A DNA stretch of 64,000 nucleotides, from assembly GCF_025263685.1 (NCBI RefSeq), contig NZ_CP092109.1:62001-126000 (forward strand), given 5' to 3'. The stretch's first letter is position 1. Each line of letters starts with the position of its first letter. The stretch comes from Geoalkalibacter halelectricus (GTDB lineage Bacteria; Desulfobacterota; Desulfuromonadia; Desulfuromonadales; Geoalkalibacteraceae). The notes below the pieces were generated by a model. It searched no databases and had not been told where the DNA came from. It saw nothing but the letters and a program-made list of their open reading frames with translations. Made by a program: the position numbers and the translations under genes. Of this stretch, positions 5,164 to 51,827 are shown in pieces.

Positions 5164-5178
5164 GGGGGTTAAAGGGGT

Positions 5179-5285
5179 GTCATTTGTCATTGGTCATTGG
5201 TCATTTGTTGGAGTTGTTTGGTGACGATCTGTCAGTTGTCAGTTGTCAGTTGTCCGGTGTCAGTTGTCCGGTGTCCGGTGTCCGT
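5179..5285. repeat. Heptamer tandem array B (4 + 8 units)
   Basis: There are two blocks. 5179-5206 has TGTCATT twice and GGTCATT twice. 5230-5285 has eight phased units that mix TGTCAGT, TGTCCGG and TGTCCGT. The first block runs into the 5' end of the gene at 4777-5163 and the second ends about 18 bases from the stop codon of the VWA gene. All units share the same orientation. Confidence 0.95.
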
Positions 5286-5303
5286 GGATTTTTAGGTGCG
5301 GGG

Positions 5304-6527: not shown

Positions 6528-6596
6528 GAGGGTTCCCTTGCAAAATCAGTCCGGTCCTTGCCTTGACCAACAACCAAGGACAAATGACCAATGACG
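6476..6596. repeat. Heptamer array C, inverted pair
   Basis: Five phased units on the plus strand (6476-6510: GGTCCTT, TGTCATT, TGTCCCT, GGTCATT, TGTCGGC) are followed 65 bases later by three units in the opposite orientation (6576-6596: AAGGACA, AATGACC, AATGACG). The two halves could pair as an imperfect stem. A separate 9-bp hairpin with GGAA loop (6455-6476) abuts the left array inside the start of the VWA gene. Confidence 0.9.
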
Positions 6597-6603
6597 GCTC
6601 TTT

Positions 6604-7665: not shown

Positions 7666-7824
7666 GGTTCCATCACCTTTTTCGCTTTACTCGGGAAACA
7701 ACCGTTTCACACGATAAATCAGGCATGAGGGTTTTGGCAAGACGCGACCCGCCGGGAAATCCTTGTCTCAACCGCCGCCAACGGGCTAAGATTGAAATCA
7801 CTGCAACTCTTCGGGAGAATCCGC

Positions 7825-8019
7825 ATGTTTGGTTTCGGCATCTGGGAAATCGCCATCCTGATCGTCATTCTGGTTGTGCTGTTCGGCGCCCGCCGCGCCG
7901 GTACCATCGTGCGCCGCGGACTCGAAGTCCACGATCAGGTCAACCAGGCGCGCAGCGGTCTGCGCAGTTTTTTCTCCCTCGACACCCTTCTCGGCCGCAA
8001 CCGCAACCGCAAACCCTGA
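7825..8019 (+). CDS. TatA/TatE-like twin-arginine translocase subunit, short form
   Basis: A 64-residue protein: one N-terminal membrane helix (MFGFGIWEIAILIVILVVLF), an FGARR hinge, an amphipathic helix and a basic tail. This is the TatA/TatB layout, in which the helix-hinge-helix assembles the pore used for folded proteins. The canonical FG-P-K/R hinge is FGARRAG here, lacking the Pro. GGGAG lies upstream of the ATG. No tatC is adjacent, so it may be a supplementary TatA or a related small membrane protein. A strong terminator follows. Confidence 0.75.
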   Translation: MFGFGIWEIAILIVILVVLFGARRAGTIVRRGLEVHDQVNQARSGLRSFFSLDTLLGRNRNRKP

Positions 8020-8027
8020 AACGTACG

Positions 8028-8058
8028 AAAGCCCCCGATCGCCAGACCGGGGGCTTTT
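8028..8058 (+). terminator. Rho-independent terminator after the TatA-like gene
   Basis: GCCCCCGAT and ACCGGGGGC form a stem around a CGCCAG loop, directly followed by TTTTT. It lies 9 bases past the stop codon of the TatA-like gene. Confidence 0.9.
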
Positions 8059-8074
8059 TACCTGAAAAAAAACC

Positions 8075-8159
8075 ATGGGACACGGATTTTCCGGATGAAC
8101 CCAGATTGAAGTATTAATCCGCCTGGATCCCGCCTTTGCCGCGCTTATCCGCGTCCCAT
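8075..8159. repeat. Imperfect palindromic element with ACACGGAT core
   Basis: The arms ATGGGACACGGAT (8075-8087) and ATCCGCGTCCCAT (8147-8159) match in 12 of 13 positions across an 85-bp element between the TatA-like terminator and the tpx stop codon. No open frame lies inside. The ACACGGAT core also appears in the palindrome at 59452-59526, so both may belong to one dispersed family. Confidence 0.65.
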
Positions 8160-8168
8160 CGGGTTTGG

Positions 8169-8687
8169 TCAAACGAGCTTCTTCACCGCCGCCAACGCCG
8201 CATCGTAATCGGGCTCGTTGGTGCCCTCCGCAACGATTTCGCGATATACCACCTTGCCCTGCGCGTCGATGATGAACACCGAGCGCGCCAGCAGTTTAAG
8301 CTCCTTCATGAGCACCCCGTAGGCGAGGCCGAAGGAGCGATCCTGATAATCGGAGAGGACCTGAACCCTTTCGATCCCGGCCGCGCCGCACCAGCGCTTC
8401 TGGGCGAAGGGCAGATCGAGGCTGATGGTGTAGACCGCCACATTGTCGGGCAAAGCGGCGGCGGCCTGGTTGAATTTGCGCACCATGGTATCGCACACGC
8501 CGGTATCGATGGAGGGCGTGGCGCTGATCAGGCGGATCTTTCCGGCCGAATCGGCCAGGGTCACGGGAGCCAGCCCCTGGTCGACCACGCGAAAATCCGG
8601 GGCCTGGTCGCCCACCTTGACATCAGGACCGATCAGGGTGATGGGATTGCCTTTGAAGGTGATGACACCGGTTCTTTCTTGAGTCAT
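8169..8687 (-). CDS. tpx: Thiol peroxidase (atypical 2-Cys peroxiredoxin)
   Basis: A 172-residue peroxiredoxin of the Tpx class. The active site [17 protein letters not shown] holds the peroxidatic Cys near residue 65 and the Thr and Arg that position the peroxide. The resolving Cys lies in [10 protein letters not shown] near residue 99. It reduces hydrogen and alkyl peroxides, normally with thioredoxin, in the cytoplasm. Length and motif order are typical. AAGGAGG lies just upstream of the ATG. No regulator is adjacent. Confidence 0.95.
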
Positions 8688-8789
8688 GGACAGCCTCCTT
8701 ATGCAGAAGATGAAAGATTATCGAATCGGTCATCATTCTAACCGCCTCTTGGTCGCTGTCAAGCGGTCCCAGGGCAATTTTTCCCGCCT

Positions 8790-9110
8790 TCAGCGGCTCG
8801 CCGACCATCTGAGGCCGGCGATGCCGATCACGATTAGAGCGATGAAGAACATCCGCGCCCAACTGCGCGGCTCGCCGAGAAAAATCATACCGATGACGGC
8901 GATACCCACCGCGCCGATGCCGGTCCAGACGGCATAGGCTGTGCCCACCGGCAGGGTGCGCAGCGCCTGGGTGAGAAACCAGAAACTCGCTCCCATGGCG
9001 GTCAGGGTAAAAAGGCTCGGCCCCATCCGGGTAAACCCGTGGCTGAACTTCAGCCCCAGGGCCCACAACACCTCGAAAAATCCCGCGATAAATAACTGAA
9101 CCCATGCCAT
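8790..9110 (-). CDS. SMR family exporter, SugE/Gdx type
   Basis: A 106-residue protein with four membrane helices. MAWVQLFIAGFFEVLWALGL contains the essential Glu of helix 1, and the GLKFSHGF and LPVGTAYAVWTGIGAVG signatures are typical of the SugE/Gdx branch of small multidrug resistance proteins. Characterised Gdx proteins export guanidinium in exchange for protons as dual-topology dimers; that activity is inferred. The start at 9110 gives the family N terminus; the longer frame reads through heptamer repeats. No guanidine riboswitch (ykkC or mini-ykkC type) was recognised upstream, where array D lies instead. Confidence 0.88.
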   Translation of the reverse strand: MAWVQLFIAGFFEVLWALGLKFSHGFTRMGPSLFTLTAMGASFWFLTQALRTLPVGTAYAVWTGIGAVGIAVIGMIFLGEPRSWARMFFIALIVIGIAGLRWSASR

Positions 9111-9114
9111 GATT

Positions 9115-9149
9115 TGTCCGTTGTTCGTTGTCCGTTGTCCGTTGTTCGT
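9115..9149. repeat. Heptamer tandem array D (5 units)
   Basis: Five phased units, TGTCCGT or TGTTCGT, lie immediately upstream of the SugE/Gdx start codon (5 bases away). They therefore occupy the place of its ribosome binding site and leader. No inverted partner was seen nearby. Confidence 0.95.
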
Positions 9150-9193
9150 TGGAATCCATTCGTCCGGGGTGGGGTTGCAGCCCCCACAGCTGG

Positions 9194-10984
9194 TTAGCCG
9201 CAGACTCCGCAGCGGCGGCAGCCGGGGGCGCAGCGCGGCGTGGACCGGCCTTGCAGGGCGTTTTGATATTCCTGCCACAGATAATCGCGGCGCACCCCGT
9301 TGTCGATCACTTCCCAGGGGAATACCTCGTCCTTGCCGCGCGGGCGCGTGACGTAGAAATCCGGATCAAGATCCAGTTCACGGCAAGCGGCCTTGAGGTT
9401 GCGGCCGGCGGCGAGCAGAGGCAACACCTGGCCGGTACGTCGGTCGCCGCGGGCGAAAAAGGCCTGGATGGTGGCGGCGCGCAGGGATTCGCAGATCATC
9501 TCGGTGTTGGCCAGACGCGCAACCCCGCCGCGGATGCGGCGCAAGGTATTCTGCAGATCCTTTTCCCGGGCCATGGGCGCCCATTGCAGGGGGGTGAAAG
9601 GCTTGGGCACGAAGGGATTGAGGGACAAGGTCAGATGGCCGAGGCGGCCGCGCTTGCGCCCGGCTTCAAGCCACAGGGTGCGGATCGCGCCGACCAGGCG
9701 CAGCAACTCGTCGGTGTCCTGGGCGTTTTCGCCGGGCAAACCGATCAGAAAATAGAGCTTGAGATTGGGGATGCCGGCCTCGGCCAGAAGTTCCACCGCG
9801 CGCAGGATATCCGCTTCGCTAAGGCCTTTATTGACCAGGTCGCGCAGGCGCTGGCTGCCTGCCTCGGGAGCGATGGCCACGCTGCGGTGCCCGGCATCGG
9901 CCAGGGCGGCAACCTCTTGCGCACCCAGGGCATCGATGCGCAGGCTCGATACCGAAACGCCTCCGCCCTGGGCCACGACATGCCGCTGCAAGGCCGCGGC
10001 CTCGGGGTGATCGGCCACCGCCGCGCCCACCAGCCCGATACGGCGGCGATGACACAGGCCTTCATCCACCTGGGCGACAAGATTTTCCAGGCTACGCTCG
10101 CGCGGCGGCAGATACAAGAAACCGGCGGCGCAGAACCGGCAGCCGCGCGAACAGCCGCGCGACACCTCGCTCAAAAACATATCGCCGAATTCCGTTTCCT
10201 CGGTGAGCACATAGGACAGGCTCGCGGATGCGTCGAGATTTTCCTGCCAGCGGCGCCGCACTTGCGCCGGAGCGCCCCGCGCGCCCTGGTACGCGGCCGG
10301 GGTGCCATCCGGGTGGTAGGTGGGTTCGTAGAGGCTCGGCACGTAGAGGCCCGGTACCTTCGCCAAACTTTCCAGCAACTCCCGACGCCCGGAGGCCTGG
10401 CCTTGCAGCGCCGCGATCAGGTCGGGCAGGATGGGCTCGGCCTCGCCCACCGCGAACAGATCCATGACCTCGGCCAGGGGTTCGGGATTGAGAAAGGCGC
10501 ACACGCCGCCCGCCAGCACCAGCGGGTGATGGGCAGCGCGCGCCGCGGCACGCCAGGGCAGCCGCGCCAGGTCAAAAATCACCGGCAGGTTGAGGTAGTC
10601 GTTTTCAAAGGACAGGGAAAAGGCGACCAGATCGAATTCGTCGAGAAAGCGCGCCGACTCCAGGGAAAACAGGGGATAGCCGGTGGCGCGATGCTCGGCC
10701 AGATCGTCAGCGTCGGGCAGGAAAAACCGTTCGCAGAGGGTATCCGCGCGGCTGTTGAGCAGATGGTAGACGGTCAAAAAGCCCAGATTGCTCATGGCAT
10801 GGCGATAGGTGTTGGGATACACCAGCGCCACCGCCAACCGCCCTCCCCAGGGGTTGGCGCGGCAACCGCTTTCCGCCTCCAGGCGGCGGCGGGCTTTATC
10901 CAGGAGTCGATGGCTCACGGGGTTGTCCGTTGTCCGTTGTCCGTTGTCCGTTGTCCGTTGTCCGTTGTCCGTTGTCTCGATCAT
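9194..10984 (-). CDS. B12-binding radical SAM protein (TIGR03960-like)
   Basis: A 596-residue protein. The N-terminal third resembles a cobalamin-binding domain (LAVALVYPNTYRHAMSNLGF). The central part is a radical SAM core with the 4Fe-4S motif CSRGCRFC near residue 240, followed by AAGFLYLPPRERS. A Cys-rich tail (CAPGCRRCGVCG) ends the protein. It matches the TIGR03960 family, often fused or linked to DUF2344; the reaction is not established. The ATG at 10984 makes the N terminus a 7-residue repeat (TTDNGQR) because the heptamer array is read in frame. A GTG at 10918 would exclude it. Confidence 0.85.
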   Translation of the reverse strand: MIETTDNGQRTTDNGQRTTDNPVSHRLLDKARRRLEAESGCRANPWGGRLAVALVYPNTYRHAMSNLGFLTVYHLLNSRADTLCERFFLPDADDLAEHRATGYPLFSLESARFLDEFDLVAFSLSFENDYLNLPVIFDLARLPWRAAARAAHHPLVLAGGVCAFLNPEPLAEVMDLFAVGEAEPILPDLIAALQGQASGRRELLESLAKVPGLYVPSLYEPTYHPDGTPAAYQGARGAPAQVRRRWQENLDASASLSYVLTEETEFGDMFLSEVSRGCSRGCRFCAAGFLYLPPRERSLENLVAQVDEGLCHRRRIGLVGAAVADHPEAAALQRHVVAQGGGVSVSSLRIDALGAQEVAALADAGHRSVAIAPEAGSQRLRDLVNKGLSEADILRAVELLAEAGIPNLKLYFLIGLPGENAQDTDELLRLVGAIRTLWLEAGRKRGRLGHLTLSLNPFVPKPFTPLQWAPMAREKDLQNTLRRIRGGVARLANTEMICESLRAATIQAFFARGDRRTGQVLPLLAAGRNLKAACRELDLDPDFYVTRPRGKDEVFPWEVIDNGVRRDYLWQEYQNALQGRSTPRCAPGCRRCGVCG

Positions 10985-11035
10985 AACGAAAGGTTTTACA
11001 AATGACCAATGACAAAGGACAAAGGACAAAGGACG
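10924..11035. repeat. Heptamer array E, inverted pair
   Basis: Seven exact TGTCCGT copies (10924-10972) and a degenerate eighth unit are followed after about 21 bases by five units in the opposite orientation (11001-11035: AATGACC, AATGACA, AAGGACA twice, AAGGACG). The halves are largely complementary and could form a stem of about 35 bp with a short loop. The left block overlaps the possible coding start of the radical SAM gene. Confidence 0.95.
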
Positions 11036-11041
11036 GTTTTC

Positions 11042-11074
11042 AAAAAAAATAAAGGGACCGCGCGAAACGGTCCC
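11042..11074 (-). terminator. Rho-independent terminator at the end of the dcw cluster
   Basis: On the minus strand GGGACCG and CGGTCCC form a stem around a 7-base loop, followed by TTTATTTTTTTT. It lies about 150 bases past the ftsZ stop codon, the 3' end of the division and cell-wall gene cluster. Confidence 0.85.
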
Positions 11075-11222
11075 TGGGTGGAGGGATGCAAAAACACCAC
11101 ATCACACACTTTCCCCTCAGGCGCCGGGCGGAGAACCGGCTCGGGGACGTGCAAAGACACCCGTCTCGTCGACAAACTGCCCTGACGGGGTTATGCCTGG
11201 TAAGGCGCGGGCGCGCTCTAGC

Positions 11223-12386
11223 TTAATCGACCCGCTTGCGCAGGAACGTGGGGATGTCGTACTCATCCTCCGTCCCAGCGATGTTGGGGCCGAGATTGCT
11301 GCGCATGCTACGAATGCTCTCGCGCTGACGTTCGCGAATGAACGCCGGAATGTCGCGGTTTTCCTTGGCGCTCAGGGCCGCGGCCGCCTGCGACCTGAGT
11401 TCCTCGGAGGCGCCGCGGGTCTGCTCGAAGGACTCGCCGAAGCCGGTGGCGATGGCGGTGATTTTGATGTTGTCGCCCATCTCCTCGTTGACCACCAGGC
11501 CGATGATGATGTTGGCGTCTTCGTGAACCTTGTCGTGAATGATGCGTGAGGCCTCGTCGAATTCTTCCATGGTCATGCTGCTCGACCCACAGATGTTGAC
11601 CAGCACGCCCTTGGCACCGGAGATATCGATTTCTTCCAGCAGCGGGCTGCTGATGGCTTTCTGGGCCGCTTCAGCGGCGCGCTTTTCACCGCTGGCCAGA
11701 CCGATGCCCATCATCGCCATGCCGCGTTCGCTCATGATCGCCTTGACGTCGGCGAAGTCGACGTTGATCAGGCCGCTGGTGGTGATGAGGTCGCTGATGC
11801 CCTGCACCGCCTGGCGCAGCACATCGTCGGAGGGCTTGAAGGCATCGAGGATGCTCATGTTCTTGCCGGCCAAACCGAGCAGGCGGTCGTTGGGAATCAC
11901 GATGAGCGAGTCGACCACTTTCTTCAGGCAATCCACGCCTTGGGTGGCCTTTTTCATGCGCTGCTTGCCTTCGCGGGTGAAGGGCTTGGTGACCACGCCG
12001 ACGGTCAGGGCGCCGAGTTCCTTGGCCACCTCGGCGATGATGGGCGCGGCGCCGGTTCCGGTGCCGCCGCCGAGGCCCGCTGCGATGAACACCATGTCGG
12101 TGCCTTCGAGAAACTCGGCGAGGCGCGCGCGGTCCTCCTGGGCCGCCTCGCGGCCGATTTCGGGATTGGCGCCGGCCCCCAGGCCCTTGGTGAGCTTGTT
12201 GCCGAGTTGAACCTTCATCGGCGCCTTGGAGTTCTTGAGAGCCTGCGCGTCGGTGTTGGCGGTGAGAAACTCAACGCCTTCGAGGTGGCAGTCGATCATG
12301 GTGTTGACCGCGTTGCCGCCGCCACCGCCGACTCCGATGACCTTGATTTTCGCCGGCCGATCCAAATTCTCTTCAAATTCAAACAT
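11223..12386 (-). CDS. ftsZ: Cell division protein FtsZ
   Basis: A 387-residue tubulin-like GTPase that polymerises into the division ring. [17 protein letters not shown] opens the nucleotide-binding fold, [10 protein letters not shown] near residue 105 is the tubulin signature, and the T7-loop region follows with [11 protein letters not shown]. The conserved C-terminal peptide [14 protein letters not shown], which binds FtsA and other partners, is intact after a short variable linker. It is the last gene of the cluster, 66 bases after ftsA, and is followed by a terminator. Confidence 0.98.
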
Positions 12387-42571: not shown

Positions 42572-42598
42572 AAAAATCCGGGCCAACCCGGATTTTTT
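42571..42598. terminator. Rho-independent terminator of the beta-barrel gene
   Basis: AAAAAATCCGGG, a CCAA loop and CCCGGATTTTTT form a symmetric hairpin with T tracts on both strands. Its edge overlaps the stop codon of the beta-barrel gene. Confidence 0.9.
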
Positions 42599-44858
42599 AA
42601 AACGTCTTCCTCGCCCGCATCTCCCAGCGGTGTTCGCGACGTTCGGAAAGGTTCACGCCTTCGTCGCGGGTGCCGTAGGCGTAGTCGAAGGCGATCTGGA
42701 GTTTTTCCCAGTTGATGCCGGCGGTGAGGTAGGTGGTGTAGATGGTGGTGTCCTCGGGCTCGAGGTGGCGATAGCGCAGGCGCAGGCCGAGCAGGGTGCG
42801 CAGGGTGGGGAAATATTCACCCGAGAGGGTGAGAGTGCGGGCCGTGCGGGTGTCCGCGAGGGGCGATTCGAGACGCTCCCAGATGAATTCCTCGCCGAGG
42901 GTGTAGAGCTTGCGGCCCATGCCGCTGCGCTGGAAATAGGAGTAGCGCAGGCGCTGCTCGACCAGGTACTGGTTGGAGTCACCGACTCCAAGGCGCCGCC
43001 AGTCGTGGTCGACGCGCAGGGAGGTCTCCACCGCGCGCACCGGAAAGTAGGCCATGTACAGACGCGTTTCCAGGGTGCGGTCGGCCTCGCCCGAGAGACC
43101 ACCCTGCAATGCCGAACCGGCGCCGACTCCCGAAGTGGTCCGGTGGCTGCCGACCACCCAGCGATTCTGCAAAGTGGCGAGAAAGCGGCGCTGATCATAG
43201 CGCAGGCGATGGCTGAGCATGACCACATCATCCTCGCCACCCTCATCGGAGAGAAAATCGTAGACCAACTCCAGGCGGCTGGTGATCCGACTGCTGCCGC
43301 GGTATTCGCCGAACCAGGTCGAGGTCGAGCGAAACACCGAGCCGTCGCGCCGCTGTACGCCCTCATTCGACAACATCCGGCCCAGGTCGCTGCGCGGCAG
43401 GATGTATTCCGCCACGCTGCGATCCAGGGTGCCCGTGCCGTGGAGAAATTCCTGGGTCAGCCCGGTGCGGTAGCTGGGCGCCAGATCCGTTTCGATGCGG
43501 CCGACGAGGGTCTGCTCCCAGAAATCCACTCCCTCGCCGAGGGCACTTTCGCCAGAGAAGTAGGCCAGGGAATAGGCGCTAAAAATATCATATTTGGGCC
43601 GATGGGCGCGGTTGGTGAATAACTCGGCCAGCGCGCGCAGGGCCACGCCCTCGCCGCGGTCGCCGGCCTTGCGCTCGGCGTCGAACTGGCCGGAGAGGCT
43701 CCAGGGCTGCCGCTGCAGGGCATCGATGCGATTGCTCAGATAAACCACCTCGCGCGTCGTTTCCTCGTCGGCGGAAAACAGAAGCCGATCCTCGCGCGCG
43801 CCGATGAAGCGGGTGCGCAGGGTGGTTTCGGGGTCTAGGTTCTTGGTCACGTAGATGGGCACGGTCAGATCGCGCTGCACGCTGGTGGCGGTGCTGTCAC
43901 GGCGAAAGGAGGTGAAGTTGGCGGTTTCCCAACCGCTGCGGCGGGCCACGGTGAAGACGTTGAGATCGTAGCGACGGTCGGGCTCGCGGCCGCTTGCCGA
44001 TCTGCTGCTCGTCGAGTAGGTCCCGTCGACGGAAAATTCGATCCAGTTGGTCAAGCGCACCCAGCGGCGCTGCAGGGTATGGTCGATGGTGCCGAGGATG
44101 TAGGCTTTTTCGATGAAATCGTTGTTGGGATTGATGAAGTCCTTATGATCGAAGACCCGGTAGTGAAACCAGTTGTCCTTTTTGTTCAAGGAAACGAAGG
44201 CCAGGTTGCGGTCGCGGTAGTGCTGAGGCGTAAAACCCTTGAGGTCGCGCACGTAGTGCTGACGATAGTCGACCAGCAGGCGCGGCGCATGGGCGAGAAC
44301 GTCGCGGTACATGCCCTCGTAATCGCCGCTGGCCGAACCGACAAACAGGGTGAATCCCGTGGTGTTCTGCTGGCCGTTGTGAATGCCGACCACCGAACTC
44401 TGCGGACCCAGGCCTTCGGAACCGAGGCTTTCGAACAGCCCTCCCGGGGAAGCGGTGGAAAAGGTCGAGCGGTGCAGGTCGTGGGAATAGAGGTGCAGGT
44501 GCAGCGGCAGGCCGCCGGGCGCTATAAGAATATCGCCCTGATAGAGAATTTTGTCGACGCTGACGTCGGTGCTCTCACCGTTGATCGAGCCGTCCAGAGC
44601 CGTCCATTCGTACCCCAGGGCCAGGTTGTAGCGCCCAGCGCGCCCACGGGCGAGGTCCCCAGCAGTGCGGTAGAGCAGGGAGTACTGCTGGGCGAACCAG
44701 GATGCATCCAAGACCTTTTCGCCCCGCTCTTTGGCGGTGTGTGCGCCATAACGCCATTCCAGCGAACCGTCAAGCTGGCCGCGGGCAGCATGGCTCTGCA
44801 GCGGCGCAAGGCCGAGGCAAAGCACGAATAAAGAGATGGCGAGAAGCCAAGGTCGCAT
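42597..44858 (-). CDS. Outer-membrane beta-barrel protein of the cytochrome locus
   Basis: A 753-residue protein with a Sec signal peptide (cleavage near LQSHA). From residue 25 to the end it is a succession of alternating polar and aromatic strands such as RRYDLNVFTVARRSGWETAN and LRLRYRHLEPEDTTIYTTY. It ends in RKTF with the terminal Phe expected of proteins folded by the Bam machine. There is no Cys after the signal, so it lacks the CxxC of MtrB. The size suggests more than 20 strands. It may form the pore of a porin-cytochrome conduit or the export gate for the OmcE-like cytochrome encoded upstream. Both roles are inferred. Confidence 0.8.
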   Translation of the reverse strand: MRPWLLAISLFVLCLGLAPLQSHAARGQLDGSLEWRYGAHTAKERGEKVLDASWFAQQYSLLYRTAGDLARGRAGRYNLALGYEWTALDGSINGESTDVSVDKILYQGDILIAPGGLPLHLHLYSHDLHRSTFSTASPGGLFESLGSEGLGPQSSVVGIHNGQQNTTGFTLFVGSASGDYEGMYRDVLAHAPRLLVDYRQHYVRDLKGFTPQHYRDRNLAFVSLNKKDNWFHYRVFDHKDFINPNNDFIEKAYILGTIDHTLQRRWVRLTNWIEFSVDGTYSTSSRSASGREPDRRYDLNVFTVARRSGWETANFTSFRRDSTATSVQRDLTVPIYVTKNLDPETTLRTRFIGAREDRLLFSADEETTREVVYLSNRIDALQRQPWSLSGQFDAERKAGDRGEGVALRALAELFTNRAHRPKYDIFSAYSLAYFSGESALGEGVDFWEQTLVGRIETDLAPSYRTGLTQEFLHGTGTLDRSVAEYILPRSDLGRMLSNEGVQRRDGSVFRSTSTWFGEYRGSSRITSRLELVYDFLSDEGGEDDVVMLSHRLRYDQRRFLATLQNRWVVGSHRTTSGVGAGSALQGGLSGEADRTLETRLYMAYFPVRAVETSLRVDHDWRRLGVGDSNQYLVEQRLRYSYFQRSGMGRKLYTLGEEFIWERLESPLADTRTARTLTLSGEYFPTLRTLLGLRLRYRHLEPEDTTIYTTYLTAGINWEKLQIAFDYAYGTRDEGVNLSERREHRWEMRARKTF

Positions 44859-44913
44859 TGCTGTCGGTGTACCTGCCGTGAAAAGTCAGTGAAATGAAAT
44901 TATTCGTCTAACC

Positions 44914-44930
44914 TTGCAACATCCGTTCCC
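44914..44930 (-). promoter_or_regulatory. Candidate sigma-54 promoter of the beta-barrel gene
   Basis: On the minus strand GGGAACG, four bases, then TTGCA match the consensus TGGCACG-N4-TTGCW at all but two positions. The GG and GC dinucleotides are 12 bases apart as required. The predicted start near 44904 leaves a leader of about 46 bases. Confidence 0.6.
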
Positions 44931-45070
44931 TGAATAACTTTTCCTAATAAATCAATCCTAAAGGGACTCGCACACGGCGAAAGCGAAGTCCAAATTAAAT
45001 GGCCCTGCGCGCACATGAAAAATTCACCATGAGGGATCCTGGCAATATAGCTGTCCGATCCAATGAAAAT

Positions 45071-45095
45071 GGGCGGAAACCGAAGTTTTCCGCCC
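45071..45095 (-). terminator. Hairpin with CUUCGG loop after the OmcE-like gene
   Basis: GGGCGGAAA and TTTCCGCCC pair around ACTTCGG, a stable UUCG tetraloop, followed by ATTTTC on the minus strand. The T tract is short, so termination may be partial. It lies 57 bases past the stop codon. Confidence 0.65.
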
Positions 45096-45151
45096 ATGGA
45101 AGCGCTCTTTTTCCCGCATTAAAGAGTCAATGCGGACAAGACTGAGATCAA

Positions 45152-45862
45152 CTACTTATTGTGGCAAGCCAGGCAAAGGCCCGATTGTTCATTGCTGGCG
45201 CGCAAGAAGGAGTCCACACCGGGCACCCCGTGCACTGCATGGCAGGAAGCACACCACATCCTTCCACCGAACAGCGGCAAATCCCGCCCGCCGGGGCCCG
45301 GAATAACCCCGTCCACTACCGCATTAAAATCATCCGATTTGGCTGTGACAACATCGTCGTAGACCATGCCGATGGGGTGATCGTCCTTAAGGACGTTACC
45401 GCCATCTTTAAGATTGGCGCGACCGCCAATCTGATCATTGCCGGGCCCATCGCCGCCAGTGAACACCGGGGGGGCTGCCTCGGCACCCTTATGGATAATT
45501 CCGCTGGCCATACCGGTACCGTCATGACAGGAAAGGCAGAGAGGCACATCGGAATTCTTGATGGCGTCAAGCAATCCCGCCGCATCCGGCTTGGACGCCG
45601 GGGTCAAGGACTGGGAGTCATAGAGATCCGCAGTGGTGAAAGAGCTGACACCGCCGTCGGTGTTGCGATTCCACAAGGGCGCATTGCTTACCGTTGTTGA
45701 AGCCTGGTGAGGAGTGTGGCAGAAAATGCACAACTCGTCATAATCCGATTTGATCGTGGCCGTGCTGTGAACAGATAAATCATGCTTACTGTCCTTAATG
45801 CTTGCCAGTGCCGGAGCGGCCAACACGCCGACGGCCAAGGCCACTACCATCAACTTTTTCAT
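45152..45862 (-). CDS. OmcE-like tetrahaem c-type cytochrome (candidate extracellular nanowire subunit)
   Basis: A 236-residue protein with a signal peptide cleaved after ALA20. Four haem sites lie at CIFCH (45-49), CLSCH (109-113), CASCH (204-208) and CLACH (230-234). Other His residues at 27, 32, 52, 124, 162 and 211 can supply the four distal ligands for bis-His haems. The landmarks SKHD near the mature start, CHTPH, APLWN, LCLSCHDGT, DDHPIG, MWCASCHAVHG and FLRASN-x3-SGLC-x2-CH at the end follow the plan of the polymerising cytochrome OmcE. Such proteins are exported and stack into conductive filaments. It has a sigma-54 type promoter, AAGGAGG nine bases from the ATG, and lies amid other multihaem genes. 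Filament formation is inferred. Confidence 0.85.
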   Translation of the reverse strand: MKKLMVVALAVGVLAAPALASIKDSKHDLSVHSTATIKSDYDELCIFCHTPHQASTTVSNAPLWNRNTDGGVSSFTTADLYDSQSLTPASKPDAAGLLDAIKNSDVPLCLSCHDGTGMASGIIHKGAEAAPPVFTGGDGPGNDQIGGRANLKDGGNVLKDDHPIGMVYDDVVTAKSDDFNAVVDGVIPGPGGRDLPLFGGRMWCASCHAVHGVPGVDSFLRASNEQSGLCLACHNK

Positions 45863-45884
45863 CTCTCGCTACCTCCTTTTTTTG

Positions 45885-45906
45885 GCCATGACCTCTGGTT
45901 CATGGC
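45885..45906 (-). promoter_or_regulatory. Leader hairpin before the OmcE-like gene
   Basis: GCCATGA and TCATGGC form a perfect 7-bp stem with an 8-base loop in the predicted 120-base leader. It ends just before the CAAAAAAAGGAGG ribosome binding region, so it could stabilise the message or modulate translation. Confidence 0.5.
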
Positions 45907-45991
45907 GTTTTATTTGCCTTCTCCCTCGTCGCACCCGGAGCAGAAAACTCTCTTGTAAACAGCCATAAGACAGATTAGACTAAACAAATTT

Positions 45992-46009
45992 AAGCACTTT
46001 TCGTGCCAA
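45992..46009 (-). promoter_or_regulatory. Candidate sigma-54 promoter of the OmcE-like gene
   Basis: On the minus strand TTGGCACGAAAAGTGCTT matches the consensus TGGCACG-N4-TTGCW with one mismatch. The -24 GG (46007-46006) and -12 GC (45995-45994) are 12 bases apart. The predicted start is near 45982. It lies between the NHL protein gene and the cytochrome gene, so the latter is probably controlled separately. Confidence 0.72.
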
Positions 46010-46092
46010 GGCGGCGGAAGCCTAAAACCCTCAGCATGCCGAAGTCCAATTACAGGCGGCGATACCCCTTCCGCCAAATGACGCATTCTCGC

Positions 46093-47190
46093 CTAGCGGT
46101 TTGGCAGATCCCCGAGCCTCCTTTGCCGCAACTCCACTTGCTGCTGGATGGTTCTTTCGTCAAAGGGATTGTTCGCCAAATACTCCTCGGAAAAATAGCG
46201 CCACTGGGCCACCCGGCGGTTCAAGCTATCCGTGATGTAAATTCGGTCTCCGCCGTCGATCCAGATATTCATGGGCATGCCGAAAGCCACCGGGGAATCA
46301 CTGATCCCTCCGCCGGTGAACAATAAAAGCGTGCCGTCCGGACGGTATGTGATCAGGGCCGCCTTGCGCACATCGAGGATGTGCAGGTTGCCGTCACTGT
46401 CAAAGGCGAGATCCTTGGGAAATTCGAAATTCCACTCGCGGTTGCCGCGCTCGCCGAACTTATATAAAAAATTACCGTCGGCATCGAATACCTGAATCCG
46501 GGCATTGAACTGATCCGCCACGAAAAGACGATGGTCGGTATCCACCGCCAGACCCTGCGGCGAATAAAGATGGCCGTCGCCCCCGCCCCATTGGCCGAAA
46601 CTGAAGAGATGTTCACCTTCGAGATCAAAAACCGCAATCTTGTGCCCTGCCCCGTCCGACACATAGATTCTGCCGAGGCTTTCATTGAGGGCTACATTGA
46701 CCGGCTTTTCGAAAATATCCGGACCTCCGAAGGAAAACAGCGGCTTGCCTGCGGCGGAAAATACCAGCACCCGCCTTGATCCGCCCTCGGCAACATATAG
46801 GTTGCCCCGACTGTCCACGGCCAACCCCAAGGGATCCTGAAACCGCCGCCCCCCAGCGAACGACTCCAGTTTGCGGCTGTTGAAATCAAACACCTTGATC
46901 ACGCGTTGATCAGCATCGGATACATACACGCGACCCTTGCCGTCGGCGGCAATACCAAGTGGTCGACCAAAAAATTCAAGACCTCTATTGCCCACCACGT
47001 CATCAACCAACCTCTCGCGCGAAGTCCTGGGCAAATCCATTTCCGAATAATAAACCCCCAACCATTCCAGGCGCGGCGTATCGGGCAACGGCGGCCAGAG
47101 CACCCGCATGTTCGCTTCGGGCTTGGCGCAGCCGCCGAGAAGTCCCACCACCAACATCAGCAGAAAGGCTTGCAACAATTTGTGTTTCAT
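46093..47190 (-). CDS. Lipoprotein NHL-repeat beta-propeller (first of two)
   Basis: A 365-residue protein with a lipobox LLGGC (Cys21) and then six NHL-type blades such as PLGIAADGKGRVYVSDADQR, PLGLAVDSRGNLYVAEGGSR and SPQGLAVDTDHRLFVADQFN. A conserved start VLWPPLPDTPRLEWLGVY is shared with the second propeller (YFWPPGTSEPRIEYIDFY). NHL propellers bind proteins or peptides and are frequent beside multihaem cytochrome genes in Geobacter-type bacteria; assembly or scaffolding of the electron conduit is inferred. It lies 42 bases after the 8-haem gene. Confidence 0.88.
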   Translation of the reverse strand: MKHKLLQAFLLMLVVGLLGGCAKPEANMRVLWPPLPDTPRLEWLGVYYSEMDLPRTSRERLVDDVVGNRGLEFFGRPLGIAADGKGRVYVSDADQRVIKVFDFNSRKLESFAGGRRFQDPLGLAVDSRGNLYVAEGGSRRVLVFSAAGKPLFSFGGPDIFEKPVNVALNESLGRIYVSDGAGHKIAVFDLEGEHLFSFGQWGGGDGHLYSPQGLAVDTDHRLFVADQFNARIQVFDADGNFLYKFGERGNREWNFEFPKDLAFDSDGNLHILDVRKAALITYRPDGTLLLFTGGGISDSPVAFGMPMNIWIDGGDRIYITDSLNRRVAQWRYFSEEYLANNPFDERTIQQQVELRQRRLGDLPNR

Positions 47191-47232
47191 CTCTTGTTTC
47201 TCCCTGGTGAAAATCCGACGGATCAGGCTCCG

Positions 47233-48240
47233 TCACTTCTGGTGACACAGGTTGCACAGACCGAACTTGGTCTGGACGCCACGTACGAACAAAAACTGCG
47301 ACTCGCCCCCGTGGGGGTCGTGACAACTGACGCAGGAAAATTCCTTGCGCTCATCCAGCGGATTGACCGGCCCGCTCAGGGGATGTCCCTTGCCGCCGAC
47401 ACCACGCACTACGTGGGTGCCTTGATCGAGCCCCTCGTGGCAGGCCAGACACACCTCGTTGGGCTTGGCGCGCAAATAGGCCTGTTCATTGGAGGCGTGG
47501 GGATCGTGACAGATGGTGCACAGGCCCACGCCGACGGGGCCGTGGGCGAAGCGGCGCTGCTCGAATTCCTCGGTCTTGCCGACGTGGCAGCTGTTGCACA
47601 ACTCGGCCTCGGCTGCGACCAGCCGGTGGCGATTGGGCTCGCTGTCGGGCAGGTGGCAATAGCTGCAATCCCAGACCCCGGCCGGGCCGTGCACGTATTT
47701 CTTGTCCAGTAATCCCTGGTGGCAGTCGCCGCAGGGGTTGGTGGCGGCGGTGTCGGCGCGCACTCCCTTGGGCAGCGGCTGCATGATGTGGCAGGGCGCG
47801 CACAGGGCCTCACCCTCGGGGGTGTGCATGACGAAGGGCTCGAATCCCTTGGGCGGGATGGCGTTGAGATCGCGCAGGTAGACGATGTTGGCCGCCTCGC
47901 GCGCCACGCGCCGCCCTTCGCGAAAGCCGGCCACCACGATCTGATTGCTGCCGGGCCGCCAGTTGGGCAGCAGGATGATGATGTCGCCGAAGGCGTTGCG
48001 ATAGACCTCGTCGCTGATGTCGATGAGATCGCTTTCGACGCCGTTGAGACTCACCGTCACCCCGGTGATCTGCGGGTCTGCGGTTTTAAGAATGAGGTAA
48101 TTGGATTTGCTCACATAGGTGCGGTCGGCCGGATAGACGATCTGCAGGGCCGCGGCGGGCGCTGCGAACAGCAGCACTGCCGAAAGCAGGGCGATGCCGA
48201 AGCTGATTGTTGCGAATCGTCTGTTCACGTTAATTCCCAT
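47233..48240 (-). CDS. Octahaem c-type cytochrome with N-terminal Ig-like domain
   Basis: A 335-residue exported protein beginning MGINVNRRFATISFGIALLS, a signal peptide ending near PAAA. Residues of about 30-130 form a beta-rich Ig-like segment (LQIVYPADRTYVSKSNYLIL) that may dock to another protein. The C-terminal part has eight CxxCH sites (CAPCH, CGDCH, CSYCH, CNSCH, CTICH, CLACH, CVSCH, CNLCH), several in the doubled CxxCH pattern with CHDPH. It probably moves electrons in the periplasm or across the outer membrane. The start at 48240 is chosen for the signal peptide; the longer frame runs into the repeat element. Confidence 0.9.
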   Translation of the reverse strand: MGINVNRRFATISFGIALLSAVLLFAAPAAALQIVYPADRTYVSKSNYLILKTADPQITGVTVSLNGVESDLIDISDEVYRNAFGDIIILLPNWRPGSNQIVVAGFREGRRVAREAANIVYLRDLNAIPPKGFEPFVMHTPEGEALCAPCHIMQPLPKGVRADTAATNPCGDCHQGLLDKKYVHGPAGVWDCSYCHLPDSEPNRHRLVAAEAELCNSCHVGKTEEFEQRRFAHGPVGVGLCTICHDPHASNEQAYLRAKPNEVCLACHEGLDQGTHVVRGVGGKGHPLSGPVNPLDERKEFSCVSCHDPHGGESQFLFVRGVQTKFGLCNLCHQK

Positions 48241-48245
48241 AATCC

Positions 48246-48455
48246 TTTTCACCGCAGAGAACGCTGAGCCCGCGGAGAAAAACAAAACCAAAACAAGATT
48301 TCTCAGGCCTGCCTCCGCGCCCTCTGCGTCTCTGCGGTGAAACCATCCCAAAAAATCCTTTTCACCGCCGAGAACGCTGAGTCCACTGAGTTAAAACAAA
48401 AACCAAAATAAGATTTCTCAGGCCTGCCTCCGCGTTCTCTGCGTCTCTGCGGTGA
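48246..48455. repeat. Tandemly duplicated palindromic element (two ~97-bp units)
   Basis: Units at 48246-48342 and 48359-48455 are close copies. Each begins TTTTCACCGC, ends CTCTGCGTCTCTGCGGTGAA and has an A-rich centre ending in GATTTCTCAGGCCTGCCTCC. The ends of each unit are inverted repeats of each other, so each can fold into a long hairpin. Similar TTCACCGCAGAGACG elements are known as dispersed repeats in several phyla. No coding sequence lies inside. Confidence 0.85.
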
Positions 48456-48466
48456 ACCCACCCGAT

Positions 48467-49555
48467 TTACCTCGCCACCGCCTCGCCCGGCCTGATGGGA
48501 TGGGCCGCGAGCCACGCGTCGTTGAGGTATTGAAAGCGATGCACCATGCGGTTGAGGCCGTCGACGACGTAGATCCCGCCCGCCGCGTCGGCGTCGATGC
48601 CGCCGGGCAGCAGAAAGCCCCCCGGCGCCACGCCGCCCGACGCCGAATGCTTGGCGCCGATGGTCATCAAGTGGCGCCCTTCAAGATCAAAGATCACGAA
48701 GCGATGGGCGCGTGCGTCGGTGACGTAGACATGCCCTTCAGGGTCGACCGCCACCGCCTTGGGAATCTGAAAGGAGCCCAGGGCCGTGCCGCGCTCGCCG
48801 AACTGCCGCAGGAAGCTGCCCTGCGGGTCGAACACCTGGATGCGCGCGTTGAGGGAATCAAGCACGTAAAGATTGCCCTGGGCGTCGAGAGCCACGTCCA
48901 GGGGATAGTTAAAGCCTCCGGGACGGCTACCGCGCCGCCCCAAACGCTGCTTGACGTTGCCCTCGGCATCGAGGCGGGTTAGACGGTGCTGCTGAGGCTC
49001 GGCCACCCAGACAGTCTCGCCGTCGGCGGAAACGGCCAGGCCGGCGGGGTTGTCCAGGTGTCCCTGGCCGAGGCTGCGCAGCTGGCGCCCATCGGCACCG
49101 AAGACATGAATCTGATGGGCGTGGATATCGCTTACGTAAACCCGGCCCCGGGCGTCCACCGCCAGGCCATGGGGAAGGCGAAAGCCGAAGTCCTGGCCTT
49201 TTTCATCCTGCAACACGCCGGTGCCGAAGCGATTCAAATCAAAAACATGCACCCGGCGCGATTCGGCATCGGAGACATAGAAACGCCCCTGGCCGTCGGA
49301 CGCCACGTCCACCGGCCGCACGAACAGCGGCCGCGGCCGCTCGCGGCCCAGTATGGCCTCGCTGATGCGCGCGGGCGCGTCGCGGCGCGCATCCTCGGCC
49401 TTTTCATAAAAGTCGATGTACTCGATGCGCGGCTCGCTGGTACCCGGCGGCCAGAAGTAGCGCTGCCGCTCCGGCTGCACCGGCGCGCAGGCGCCCAGCA
49501 GCACCAGAATCGCTCCGGCCAGCATCAGCCGACCCATGATGGCCGTTCTCTTCAT
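48467..49555 (-). CDS. Lipoprotein NHL-repeat beta-propeller (second of two)
   Basis: A 362-residue protein with the lipobox LLGAC (Cys23) followed by WPPGTSEPRIEYIDF and six NHL blades (for example RPVDVASDGQGRFYVSDAES, PHGLAVDARGRVYVSDIHAH and PKAVAVDPEGHVYVTDARAH). It is a paralogue of the propeller at 46093. The ATG at 49555 gives a normal-length lipoprotein signal; the ATG at 49582, eight bases after the upstream stop, is an alternative. It immediately follows the 19-haem gene, so the two are almost certainly cotranscribed. Confidence 0.87.
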   Translation of the reverse strand: MKRTAIMGRLMLAGAILVLLGACAPVQPERQRYFWPPGTSEPRIEYIDFYEKAEDARRDAPARISEAILGRERPRPLFVRPVDVASDGQGRFYVSDAESRRVHVFDLNRFGTGVLQDEKGQDFGFRLPHGLAVDARGRVYVSDIHAHQIHVFGADGRQLRSLGQGHLDNPAGLAVSADGETVWVAEPQQHRLTRLDAEGNVKQRLGRRGSRPGGFNYPLDVALDAQGNLYVLDSLNARIQVFDPQGSFLRQFGERGTALGSFQIPKAVAVDPEGHVYVTDARAHRFVIFDLEGRHLMTIGAKHSASGGVAPGGFLLPGGIDADAAGGIYVVDGLNRMVHRFQYLNDAWLAAHPIRPGEAVAR

Positions 49556-49590
49556 CGTTTTTTTCTGTCCGTCCCTGTTCATTTCAGTGC

Positions 49591-51213
49591 CTACCAGTAA
49601 CGCACCGGCTTGACGCGATCGTACGTCTTGGGCTTGTGACAACCGACGAAGCAGGTGGCGCCGGTGTCGTGCTGCTCAAAGCGGATGGGAATTTCCCAGG
49701 CTCCGAAGCCCGGGATGCGGCTTTTGATGAGCTTGGGCTGATCGGCGCCGTGAATCCCGTGACAGCTCTTGCAGGTGCGGCTTTTCACCGGCCGGTTGAC
49801 GTGCAGGTAGTGCAGGTTGGCGTCGCCGTTGCGAAATCCGGTCAGATCGGCGGTGCGCTCGTAGATAAACGCCTGATGGTCGTGGCAGGCAAAGCACAGA
49901 TCGTAATTGCCGAGGTTAAAATCGGTGTAGAACTCTTCCGGATAGTAGATATTGAGCAGCGGCTCGTAAGGCCCGCCGTGGGGGTTGTGGCACATCCAGC
50001 ACACCCCGATGTCCACCGGGCCATGGCCGTAGGTGGCTTCCTTGACGGCTTTTTCAATGGGGGCGTGACAATCGAAGCACACCTGGGCATCGGGCTTGTG
50101 CAGCAACTTGTGGTTGCCGGTACCGTGGGGGTCATGGCAGACCACGCATCCCTCGGCGGCGACGACGCTGTGATGGGATTGGGCCTCGGCCACCTGACGG
50201 CCGATATCGCCGTGGCACTCAAGGCACAGGGCATCGCCCGCCGCGGGCAGCATGGCGCGAGTTTTGTCGCCGTGGGGATCATGGCACTGCACGCAACCCT
50301 GCTCCACAACCGGATGGGGATTTTTCAGGCCGCGCAGATGCCCCATGTCGTCGTGGCAATAGAGGCACAGCTCGTTGCCGGCAGCGGGCAGGGAAAAGGG
50401 CGCCGCGGAGCCGTGGACATCGTGACAGGCGCTGCAATCGCCCTCGCGCACCGGGGTGTGCTGCACGGCGGCGCTTTGCTGGCCGCTGTGGCATTCGGCG
50501 CACAACTGCGCTCCGCGCGCGGGCAACAAGCCCTTTTCCTTGCCGCCGTGGGCGCCGTGGCAGGCGGTGCAATCCTTTTGCTCCACGGGGGTGTGCAGAT
50601 GGGTTTTGCCGCGCGTGACGCCGCCATGGCAGCGCAGGCAAAGATCACCGCCGGGCGCGCTGAGCAGCGCCTCGCCGTAGCCGGCGTGCGGCCGGTGGCA
50701 CAGGGTGCAGGTGCCGGCCTTCACCGGGCGATGGGGCACCGCGAAGGCATCGGCGGGATTTTCGTGGCAGGTTGTGCAAAGACGCGCGGCAGGCTGCGGC
50801 AGCATTCCGGAGTAAGCACCCCCATGGGGATCGTGACAAGCGGTACAGCCCAGGTCCAGGGCGCTATGGACATTGGGGTGGCGGCCCCGCGGATCGGCAT
50901 GACAGAGCAGGCACAGGGCATCACCCTCAGCGATCAGGCTCGCCTTGGCCCCGCCCCGCGGATGCGCGCCCGCCCCCGTCTGGTGACAGCTCTGGCATTC
51001 GCCGAGGGCCACGGGCGCGTGGACATGCCGCGCTTTGCCCAGGTCACCATGGCATTCGGCGGTCAGGCAGCCCTGCGCAAAAGCTGCTACGGCATATCGC
51101 GGCAGCAGGAGGGCGAGCAGCATCAGCGCCACCACCAAGGCACCCGTAGCAACTAAATTCCCCTGTCTCGCGGCGATCTTAGACAATCGCGCACCCTGTG
51201 CGACATAGCTCAT
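49591..51213 (-). CDS. Large multihaem c-type cytochrome (about 19 haem sites)
   Basis: A 540-residue exported protein with an unusually long N-terminal region before the hydrophobic signal core (residues of about 20-40, cleavage near AVAA). It has 17 canonical CxxCH sites, mostly as doubled pairs with CHDPHG, plus two with unusual spacing: C-x4-CH at 49-55 and C-x3-CH at 521-526. With one haem per 28 residues it can span tens of angstroms. The repeat pattern suggests growth by duplication of a two-haem module. It is likely periplasmic or outer-membrane associated, and forms a unit with the NHL lipoprotein encoded directly after it. Confidence 0.92.
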   Translation of the reverse strand: MSYVAQGARLSKIAARQGNLVATGALVVALMLLALLLPRYAVAAFAQGCLTAECHGDLGKARHVHAPVALGECQSCHQTGAGAHPRGGAKASLIAEGDALCLLCHADPRGRHPNVHSALDLGCTACHDPHGGAYSGMLPQPAARLCTTCHENPADAFAVPHRPVKAGTCTLCHRPHAGYGEALLSAPGGDLCLRCHGGVTRGKTHLHTPVEQKDCTACHGAHGGKEKGLLPARGAQLCAECHSGQQSAAVQHTPVREGDCSACHDVHGSAAPFSLPAAGNELCLYCHDDMGHLRGLKNPHPVVEQGCVQCHDPHGDKTRAMLPAAGDALCLECHGDIGRQVAEAQSHHSVVAAEGCVVCHDPHGTGNHKLLHKPDAQVCFDCHAPIEKAVKEATYGHGPVDIGVCWMCHNPHGGPYEPLLNIYYPEEFYTDFNLGNYDLCFACHDHQAFIYERTADLTGFRNGDANLHYLHVNRPVKSRTCKSCHGIHGADQPKLIKSRIPGFGAWEIPIRFEQHDTGATCFVGCHKPKTYDRVKPVRYW

Positions 51214-51350
51214 TAATCTTTTTTCCTGTGATTTAAGAGATTAATGCAAAACAATTATCTCGATCTTACATACAAGTTTCATGCCCTGGCTGGGCATGCA
51301 AGCGCGGGGATTTTGCGGACAATACGGGAGAAGGAAAATGGAGAACCCGC

Positions 51351-51425
51351 GGGCGATGATCCTTGGCTTTGGGGGAAAGCAGGACCATCGCCCCTGGAAA
51401 CGGGCTTTTGACGCCTGGGTCAAAA
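51351..51425. promoter_or_regulatory. Structured leader: 43-base nested palindrome and TTTTGAC dyad
   Basis: GGGCGATG and CATCGCCC (51351-51358 and 51386-51393) enclose TCCT/AGGA and GCTTT/AAAGC pairs around a five-G loop, about 17 bp in total. Eleven bases away TTTTGAC and GTCAAAA (51406-51412 and 51419-51425) form a perfect dyad with a six-base gap, the geometry of a protein operator. Both lie between the upstream terminator and the 19-haem gene. Confidence 0.65.
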
Positions 51426-51443
51426 ATACCGATGAGGGAAACA

Positions 51444-51476
51444 AAAAACCGGCGCGCGGTTGAACCGGGCGCCGGT
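51444..51476 (-). terminator. Rho-independent terminator after the small tetrahaem cytochrome
   Basis: ACCGGCGC and GCGCCGGT pair around an inner CGGTT/AACCG stem, followed by TTTTTTG on the minus strand. It separates the small cytochrome transcript from the 19-haem gene. Confidence 0.9.
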
Positions 51477-51503
51477 GAAATTAGACGGAAGAGAAAGCGA
51501 CGA

Positions 51504-51827
51504 TCAGCGGATGTGGCAATCCGCGCAGGCGGTGCTCAGACCCACCTCCTGGTGGCAGCCCTTGCACTGCATGTGAAAGGCATCGGTCTTGCGGCGGGCA
51601 TCCTCACGTACGCCGTGACAGGAACTGCACTTGGGATACGCGCCGGTGTGGTGGCAGGTGGTGCAGTCGGGAACCCAGTTGGCGTGGTCGATGTGGCTGA
51701 AGTGCACATCGCCGAGGCGCGCCGGGAAGGTCACCTCGTCGGGCACCTTCATCTCCTCCTGCTCGGACTGAACCGGGGCGGCGACGAACAAGAACACCAA
51801 CAAGGCGATTGGCCAGAGAATTTTCAT
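51504..51827 (-). CDS. Small periplasmic tetrahaem cytochrome (class III-like)
   Basis: A 107-residue protein with a Sec signal (MKILWPIALLVFLFVAAPVQS) and four haem sites: CTTCH, CSSCH, CKGCH and CADCH. HFSHIDHANWVPDCTTCHHTG resembles the c3/c7 family, where nearby His residues are distal ligands. Such proteins shuttle electrons through the periplasm. GGAGG nine bases before the ATG supports the start. It has its own promoter candidate and terminator, so it is transcribed separately from the larger cytochromes. Confidence 0.9.
   Translation of the reverse strand: MKILWPIALLVFLFVAAPVQSEQEEMKVPDEVTFPARLGDVHFSHIDHANWVPDCTTCHHTGAYPKCSSCHGVREDARRKTDAFHMQCKGCHQEVGLSTACADCHIR

Follow-up and report, generated by a model that had tools for sequence, protein, structure and literature searches.

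The stretch of DNA analysed here (the window, 64,000 nucleotides) corresponds to bases 62001-126000 of the 4.13-Mb single-contig genome of Geoalkalibacter halelectricus. At 42597-51827, it holds seven genes, all on the minus strand, which encode an OmcE-family tetrahaem cytochrome, a large predicted outer-membrane beta-barrel, two NHL beta-propeller lipoproteins and three further multihaem cytochromes. From its gene content and order, the locus appears to be the Geoalkalibacter version of an OmcE cluster conserved in Desulfuromonadia, and it bears on two processes, the exit of cytochrome filaments and their electron supply, which a 2025 review describes as incompletely understood (PMC12307469). 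The features of the locus are as follows (window coordinates).

42597 to 44858, minus strand: barrel of 753 amino acids (aa), with a signal-like N-terminus, a C-terminal F and 36 strand segments in its model
45069 to 45097, minus strand: intrinsic-terminator-like hairpin (11 pairs, weak T tract) located 3' of the omcE-like gene
45152 to 45862, minus strand: OmcE-family tetrahaem cytochrome of 236 aa, with four CXXCH and invariant His 27, 52, 162 and 211
46093 to 47190, minus strand: NHL beta-propeller lipoprotein 1 (Pfam NHL), probable partner of the OmcE-like protein, lost or moved with OmcE in five loci
47233 to 48240, minus strand: octahaem cytochrome (c8) with an N-terminal Ig/FNIII-like domain and a signal-like N-terminus, without lipobox
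48467 to 49555, minus strand: NHL beta-propeller lipoprotein 2 (nhl2; Pfam NHL)
49591 to 51213, minus strand: 19-haem MtrA/DmsE-like cytochrome (c19), without lipobox, with 9 to 25 motifs in relatives
51447 to 51461, minus strand: weak terminator-like hairpin 3' of the c4 gene, 5 pairs by scan
51504 to 51827, minus strand: small tetrahaem c3/c7-type cytochrome (c4), a putative soluble shuttle resembling PpcA, whose gene probably forms a separate transcription unit

A preliminary description of this DNA had announced seven same-strand genes with about 35 haem sites, and all of them are present: the four cytochromes carry 35 motifs (4 in the OmcE-like, 8 in the octahaem, 19 in the 19-haem and 4 in the small tetrahaem protein), and no other open frame of the window contains two or more CXXCH. 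Gaps within the seven-gene set do not exceed 293 bp, and the likely starts of c8 (48240), nhl2 (49555) and c4 (51827) were chosen by reading. Once the likely starts are used, both NHL proteins show a lipobox-like sequence (LGGC and LGAC) and, their Pfam NHL matches being strong, the earlier assignment as NHL lipoproteins is confirmed. A chance arrangement or an annotation artefact is ruled out by the 35 motifs in four open reading frames together with the conserved synteny.

Products of the seven genes

Regarding the OmcE-like protein, its placement in the OmcE-type tetrahaem filament cytochrome family, which the preliminary description had proposed, is supported by two matches, to OmcE itself (PDB 7TFS, 5.4e-27, aligned residues 4-236) and to PDB 9YUQ (2.4e-35, aligned residues 1-236). 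Its four CXXCH motifs and His 27, 52, 162 and 211 are invariant among 21 aligned sequences, that of the window included. The syntenic OmcE-like protein of Desulfuromonas soudanensis (locus L030, genome G018) is 100% identical to 9YUQ over 218 residues, and this entry holds 16 copies of the identical chain; as read from the L030 alignment row, the window protein is 45% identical to it. In a Geobacter locus of the same gene order, the encoded protein matches OmcE at 6e-62. It has been reported for OmcE that a histidine of the next subunit ligates a haem (PMC9473688); histidines available as second haem ligands are kept in the OmcE-like protein. By analogy with these relatives, the window protein may polymerise.

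The 19-haem protein, whose motifs comprise 17 CXXCH, one CX4CH (residue 49) and one CX3CH (residue 521), matches MtrA (6R2Q_A) at 1.7e-16 and is a plausible electron link from the periplasm to the outer membrane. The barrel has a C-terminal F that is nearly invariant among homologues, in addition to its signal-like N-terminus. Its model is all-beta and fairly confident (mean predicted local distance difference test 86.9, predicted template modelling score 0.67), with 36 strand segments of at least three residues, a count that rests on one model from 22 sequences. The barrel has no match in Pfam or NCBIfam at E up to 0.01, its profile has none among PDB sequences at E up to 1, and a single profile match in its own genome indicates that there is no second copy. 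A Foldseek search with the model ranked MtrB (6R2Q) first, at 4.9e-9. VIA-align returned mostly porins and transporters at root-mean-square deviations of 10-16, which is uninformative, and MtrB was absent among the 50 matches listed.

For the octahaem protein, structure-model matches at E up to 0.001 cover the N-terminal Ig/FNIII-like domain only; about the first 24 residues of this model do not belong to the protein, the first alignment row having begun upstream of the likely start codon. The protein does not qualify as an MtrC or OmcA, since it lacks a lipobox and scores 18.2 bits on the OmcA/MtrC model against a cut-off of 209.3, and no gene for a surface decahaem lipoprotein of the MtrC/OmcA family is found among the seven. 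The interval between c8 and nhl2 (48241-48466) contains a palindromic element twice in tandem, at a spacing of about 115 bp. The element begins TTCACCGCAGAGACGCAGAG; it has exact matches nowhere else in the genome and matches with one or two mismatches at five further places. In its upstream part, the longest c8 frame runs across one of the two copies.

The small tetrahaem protein matches a high-molecular-weight cytochrome c at 7.5e-10 and PpcA at 4e-8, which places it in the c3/c7 type; it is probably a PpcA-like soluble shuttle that is transcribed separately.

Conservation and variation across Desulfuromonadia

The barrel was found in 23 of 58 genomes, its own included, and, in a sample of 200 genomes of the class, in 62. 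All 23 genomes with the barrel have an OmcE-family gene at E up to 1e-8, versus 16 of the 35 without it; co-occurrence statistics given here ignore relatedness, and Fisher p is descriptive. Stretches were taken from 21 of the 22 other barrel genomes (G021, with a fragment at a contig end, was left out), and they hold the genes for OmcE in 20 cases, NHL in 21, octahaem in 21, MtrA-like in 18 (the other three contigs end before that gene) and tetrahaem in 2; 12 of these stretches extend to purD, including the two with the tetrahaem gene. In a 46-locus set, OmcE, NHL and octahaem genes are together in 42, the other four being contigs shorter than 5 kb; all 40 loci of at least 9 kb hold the three genes, and 34 of them the MtrA-like gene as well, the other six being cut before it. 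Both sets share several contigs, so that the tallies are not independent. The co-occurrence in relatives on which the preliminary description had staked its proposal is hence observed, the parts being syntenic across Desulfuromonadia. In one relative (L028:10038-16249, G005), an insert with frames of 496 and 261 aa, possibly an IS21-type element, interrupts the octahaem gene and leaves one piece with 7 motifs and another with 1; this relative carries a further 778-aa frame before NHL2.

In L040 (G035), the sole OmcE-less locus among the 21, the omcE gene and the adjacent NHL gene are both gone, the genes for the barrel, the octahaem protein, NHL2 and the MtrA-like protein are kept, and OmcE-family genes lie elsewhere in the genome. 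In L037, L052, L054 and L055, omcE and one NHL gene have stayed side by side but are located past the barrel, on the other strand. This joint loss or move suggests two units, OmcE with NHL1 on the one hand, and the MtrA-like protein with NHL2, the octahaem protein and the barrel on the other.

The MtrA-like protein varies in length by haem number. Across 46 loci in which the MtrA-like gene could be read (that of the window and 45 others, each distinct barrel being represented once), it has 9-11 motifs in 30, 19-21 in 7 and 25 in 9. On the barrel tree, the three motif-number classes need at least 7 changes; when well-supported branches only are considered, no class requires more than 2, and repeated change is thus likely. 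L029 (9 motifs) and L030 (25 motifs) are supported sisters (98/95). Where the CX4CH and CX3CH end motifs are both present, motif counts are odd, so that the steps are even and consistent with a paired-CXXCH unit; the 10-motif forms of Geobacteraceae lack CX4CH (author's count). The reach of the protein into the periplasm may be tuned by duplication or loss of such a unit.

A second recurrent feature is a hairpin after omcE, found with our own script in 47 of 50 loci, near-copies being included among the 50. The script required a stem of 7 or more pairs with a T-rich tail behind it, no further than 120 nt from the stop. The same search gave 3/46 after the MtrA-like gene, 4/62 and 4/31 after the two NHL groups, 1/52 after the octahaem gene and 16/52 after the barrel. 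In the window, the hairpin after omcE combines a strong stem with a weak T tract; a terminator scan of the region returned 9 sites versus 11.5 expected from shuffles, i.e., no excess, and the c4-c19 hairpin (51461-51447) was weak in it. The omcE hairpin may lower transcription of the barrel gene relative to that of the filament subunit, or end the operon.

On the periplasmic side, the c4 gene is present in 2 of the 12 relatives' stretches reaching purD, and tetrahaem relatives of c4 lie on the same side in L024, L026, L052, L054 and L055. Seven Geobacteraceae loci (L065, L067, L069, L073, L074, L082 and L085) have instead a small trihaem gene 2.3-2.9 kb before the MtrA-like gene, which was not found in other Geobacteraceae loci with as much upstream DNA; the L067 protein, the sole one tested, matches PpcA at 2.6e-30. 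Between the MtrA-like gene and purD, L033 (10688-12955) has ResB and CcsA-type genes of system II cytochrome c biogenesis (Pfam), and similar genes were read at that place in L030 and L038. In the window no such genes lie between the MtrA-like gene and the purD side, ResB matches being located elsewhere in the genome. ResB matches are located at about 150.3-151.2 kb of G000:C1, and three frames of 2,621-2,764 aa with 37 haem motifs each are present at G000:C1:152207-160498, 160650-168842 and 190004-197866, outside the window.

The self-contained module of the preliminary description is thus too strong a wording, since haem-attachment genes of the ResB type are found in another part of the genome and the seven genes include no inner-membrane quinol cytochrome. 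Likewise, a single seven-gene transcription unit was rejected in view of the hairpins 3' of c4 and between omcE and the barrel gene and of the rarity of c4 in purD-reaching stretches.

OmcE-family genes in other locus types

Stretches around 42 other OmcE-family genes, 40 from relatives and two from the same genome, were examined, as a part of all further matches. In 38 of them, the OmcE-family gene has a propeller-type gene within 165 bp on its own strand, 21 of these neighbours matching the NHL profiles and 17 matching the protein of about 1000 aa of L043; the L043 protein, the sole member of its group tested, has Pfam FG-GAP, PEGA and Ig matches rather than NHL. The exceptions are L125, L127 and L148, without a propeller-type gene, and L151, in which the distance is 1153 bp. 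As a small control, 20 windows of 17 kb (round coordinates, five genomes) yielded no NHL gene, one of them having an OmcE-profile match without NHL.

In 18 loci, genes for an OmcE paralogue, a lipoprotein of the NHL type and an octahaem cytochrome stand ahead of relatives of T2SSF and T2SSE from L044. Two of these type II secretion-type loci, L131 and L132, belong to genomes (G025 and G027) in which the barrel described here was not found. OmcE paralogues with NHL neighbours in barrel-less loci imply that not all OmcE-type proteins depend on this barrel and, together with the 38 propeller neighbours out of 42, that the propeller is a more general partner than the barrel.

In L044 itself, from the same genome as the window (G000:C1:1631000-1650500), the interval 4151-11307 has the OmcE paralogue, NHL lipoprotein and octahaem genes adjoining T2SSE (MshEN), T2SSF and PilM-like genes. 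Loci of this type (relatives L113-L132) are found near a lon-like gene, and secretion-type genes are present in 18 of the 21 examined (the own locus and 20 others). This arrangement could possibly represent a dedicated pseudopilus export route for an OmcE-type cytochrome. An 805-aa open reading frame beside the OmcE paralogue of L044, suspected from its length to be a barrel, reads like Lon protease.

Giant multihaem cytochromes of 2,802 and 2,712 aa, with 75 and 71 motifs (author's count), are encoded in L182 (580-8985) and L183 (541-8676) directly downstream of another OmcE-family gene and the gene for a protein of about 1000 aa, and occur also among L136-L152; the giant cytochrome in D. soudanensis probably corresponds to DSOUD_0664, for which 69 motifs have been published. 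Two further loci, L147 (G024) and L150 (G027), represent a different kind of cluster and combine an MtrA-like cytochrome, NHL lipoproteins, a 5-7-motif protein, a 9-12-motif OmcE-related protein and a haem-free barrel-like protein of 667-716 aa, for which no homology to the barrel of the window was detected.

Function of the cluster and known systems

Considered as a whole, the locus probably represents, in our judgement and with some reserve, an MtrAB-like conduit joined to an OmcE-type filament unit and fed by a PpcA-like shuttle. In this arrangement, the small tetrahaem cytochrome would deliver electrons as a soluble carrier to the conduit, in which the 19-haem MtrA-like cytochrome would reach from deep in the periplasm into the barrel, and the octahaem cytochrome with one NHL lipoprotein would pass electrons on at one mouth of the barrel. 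The OmcE-like protein would polymerise outside as a cytochrome filament, with the other NHL lipoprotein handling its base or its assembly. Several points weigh against this proposal. On the DmsE-family model the 19-haem protein scores 172.9 bits, i.e., below the cut-off of 192.2 (the 25-motif counterpart of L030 reaches 269.5 summed over six stretches, and four short counterparts 67-101). The superposition of the barrel on MtrB is poor (template modelling score 0.28-0.31), and no sequence kinship between them was detected. We take 9YUQ to be a filament from its 16 copies, and we infer both the polymerisation of the window protein and the joining of the parts into a single complex, as well as its topology and electron flow. 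The hairpin between omcE and the barrel gene in most loci implies that they are not simply co-expressed. Finally, conduction by cytochrome filaments in vivo is itself disputed (PMC11077965).

The preliminary description had seen in the locus parts for both wiring and export. Its first half is plausible in view of the MtrA-related 19-haem protein; the barrel as filament exporter is not supported. It appears indeed unlikely that the barrel and propellers are primarily an export and assembly machine, with OmcE leaving through a wide barrel, NHL proteins acting as chaperones and wiring being secondary. The 36 strand segments modelled, versus the 26 strands of the MtrB barrel (PMC12133095), the near-constant propeller neighbours of other OmcE-family genes and the eight-gene block near omcS that has been connected with the maturation and secretion of OmcS (PMC12977616, which cites Shen et al. 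2025) all speak for such a machine. However, OmcE paralogues and NHL genes also occur in loci without this barrel, 18 of which have type II secretion-type genes instead, including the two in genomes where this barrel was not detected; moreover, an MtrA-like cytochrome beside the barrel suggests a wire-filled lumen, and the strand count comes from one model of 22 sequences.

We consider it improbable that the cluster runs inwards as an Mto-like route that oxidises Fe(II) or Fe(0) and has the OmcE-like protein for its collecting antenna. Such a route has been proposed for the matching locus of Geoalkalibacter ferrihydriticus, an organism that oxidises siderite and corrodes iron (PMC12016550). 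Yet the direction of electrons is unreadable from sequence, the barrel is widespread in Desulfuromonadia (62 of the 200 class genomes), and one of its carriers, D. soudanensis (G018), is described as respiring metals and electrodes (PMC4914508). It is very improbable that the OmcE-like protein is monomeric here and serves as the surface cytochrome of an Mtr-type conduit: its identity to the 9YUQ protein is just 45%, but all eight histidines that could ligate haem are conserved in it, and the 16-copy entry contains the D. soudanensis protein from this very locus.

A more speculative reading, which we consider unlikely, makes the barrel an unusually wide pore of about 34-36 strands that would be at once exit port and electrical socket. 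An MtrA-like wire that spans the periplasm, its length adjusted to the envelope stepwise (mostly two haems a step, from 9 to 25), would plug into it. In the same reading, a membrane-anchored propeller would hold the base of the filament and the terminator, conserved in position, would set many subunits per socket. The OmcE cluster offers a small part list and a natural split into filament and conduit sub-modules, as well as natural experiments such as the OmcE-less L040 and the 9- versus 25-motif wires of the sisters L029 and L030. As it is widely conserved and falls into distinct parts, the questions of wiring and export become easier to test.

The kind of cluster is already known, because matching or similar gene lists have been published for G. 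ferrihydriticus, probably for D. soudanensis, and for the Uet system. What is new here is the terminator-like hairpin after omcE in 47 of 50 loci, the range of 9 to 25 haem motifs of the MtrA-like wire at one locus among relatives, and the fact that OmcE-family genes have a propeller-type neighbour in two further types of locus as well, one with type II secretion-type genes. No report of the omcE terminator, of the 9-25 haem series or of a type II secretion-linked OmcE paralogue was found in the open literature, which was searched narrowly for the terminator and secretion.

MtrCAB (6R2Q) also has an MtrA-like multihaem protein beside a large barrel; it differs by 10 haems instead of 19 motifs, by barrels without detected sequence kinship and by MtrC, in place of which the window has an octahaem protein without lipobox, plus propellers and a filament gene. 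PCC3, the OmcS machinery and Uet are compared through their published descriptions. PCC3 of Fe(II) oxidisers shares the idea of a periplasm-spanning multihaem wire of variable haem number (21, 24, 27), but the available part of its published list has no OmcE-like or NHL gene (PMC10734462). In the OmcS machinery (Osc, PMC13194489; OetABI conduit, PMC10553843), a filament gene likewise stands beside a barrel and periplasmic cytochromes; its filament is hexahaem, whereas the filament gene of the window has four motifs, and it includes an extracellular cytochrome lipoprotein, OetB. Uet (Tenderia, Gallionella) combines an extracellular tetrahaem protein UetA, a barrel UetC, NHL proteins UetHI, a large multihaem UetJ and small periplasmic cytochromes (PMC10734462). 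It differs by the peptidyl-prolyl isomerase UetB, of which type no match was found among the seven proteins, by three trihaem shuttles and by an 11-haem UetJ, the wire having 19 motifs in the window and 11 in some relatives. Cytochrome clusters with NHL genes have also been described in D. ferrophilus (PMC9769857).

Closer likenesses are found among relatives. The conduit cluster DSOUD_2909-2915 of D. soudanensis, with cytochromes and a putative beta-barrel (PMC4914508), is probably the cluster of L030, a match drawn from gene number and position (the L030 barrel lies at 3.22 Mb of a 3,958,620-bp genome); its wire has 25 motifs against 19. The G. ferrihydriticus locus Ga0056053_02426-02431 likewise contains an MtoA-like cytochrome, a second cytochrome, an OmcE homologue and two NHL genes (PMC12016550). 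It has been published as an Fe(II)-oxidation locus without mtoB and mtoD, lists a putative quinol-oxidising cytochrome and, in the available part of the source, names no barrel. In G. sulfurreducens, OmcE is GSU0618, ppcA is GSU0612 and GSU0615/0616 are cytochromes (PMC2700814, PMC13194489). The OmcE region of Geobacteraceae (Geobacter, Geotalea, Geomobilimonas, Pelotalea) has wires of 9-11 motifs, one NHL gene in L065, L067, L069 and L085 where the window has two, and PpcA where the window has a tetrahaem shuttle; it shares with the window the MtrA-like, octahaem, NHL, OmcE and barrel genes in one order, with a PpcA-type gene nearby in seven loci.

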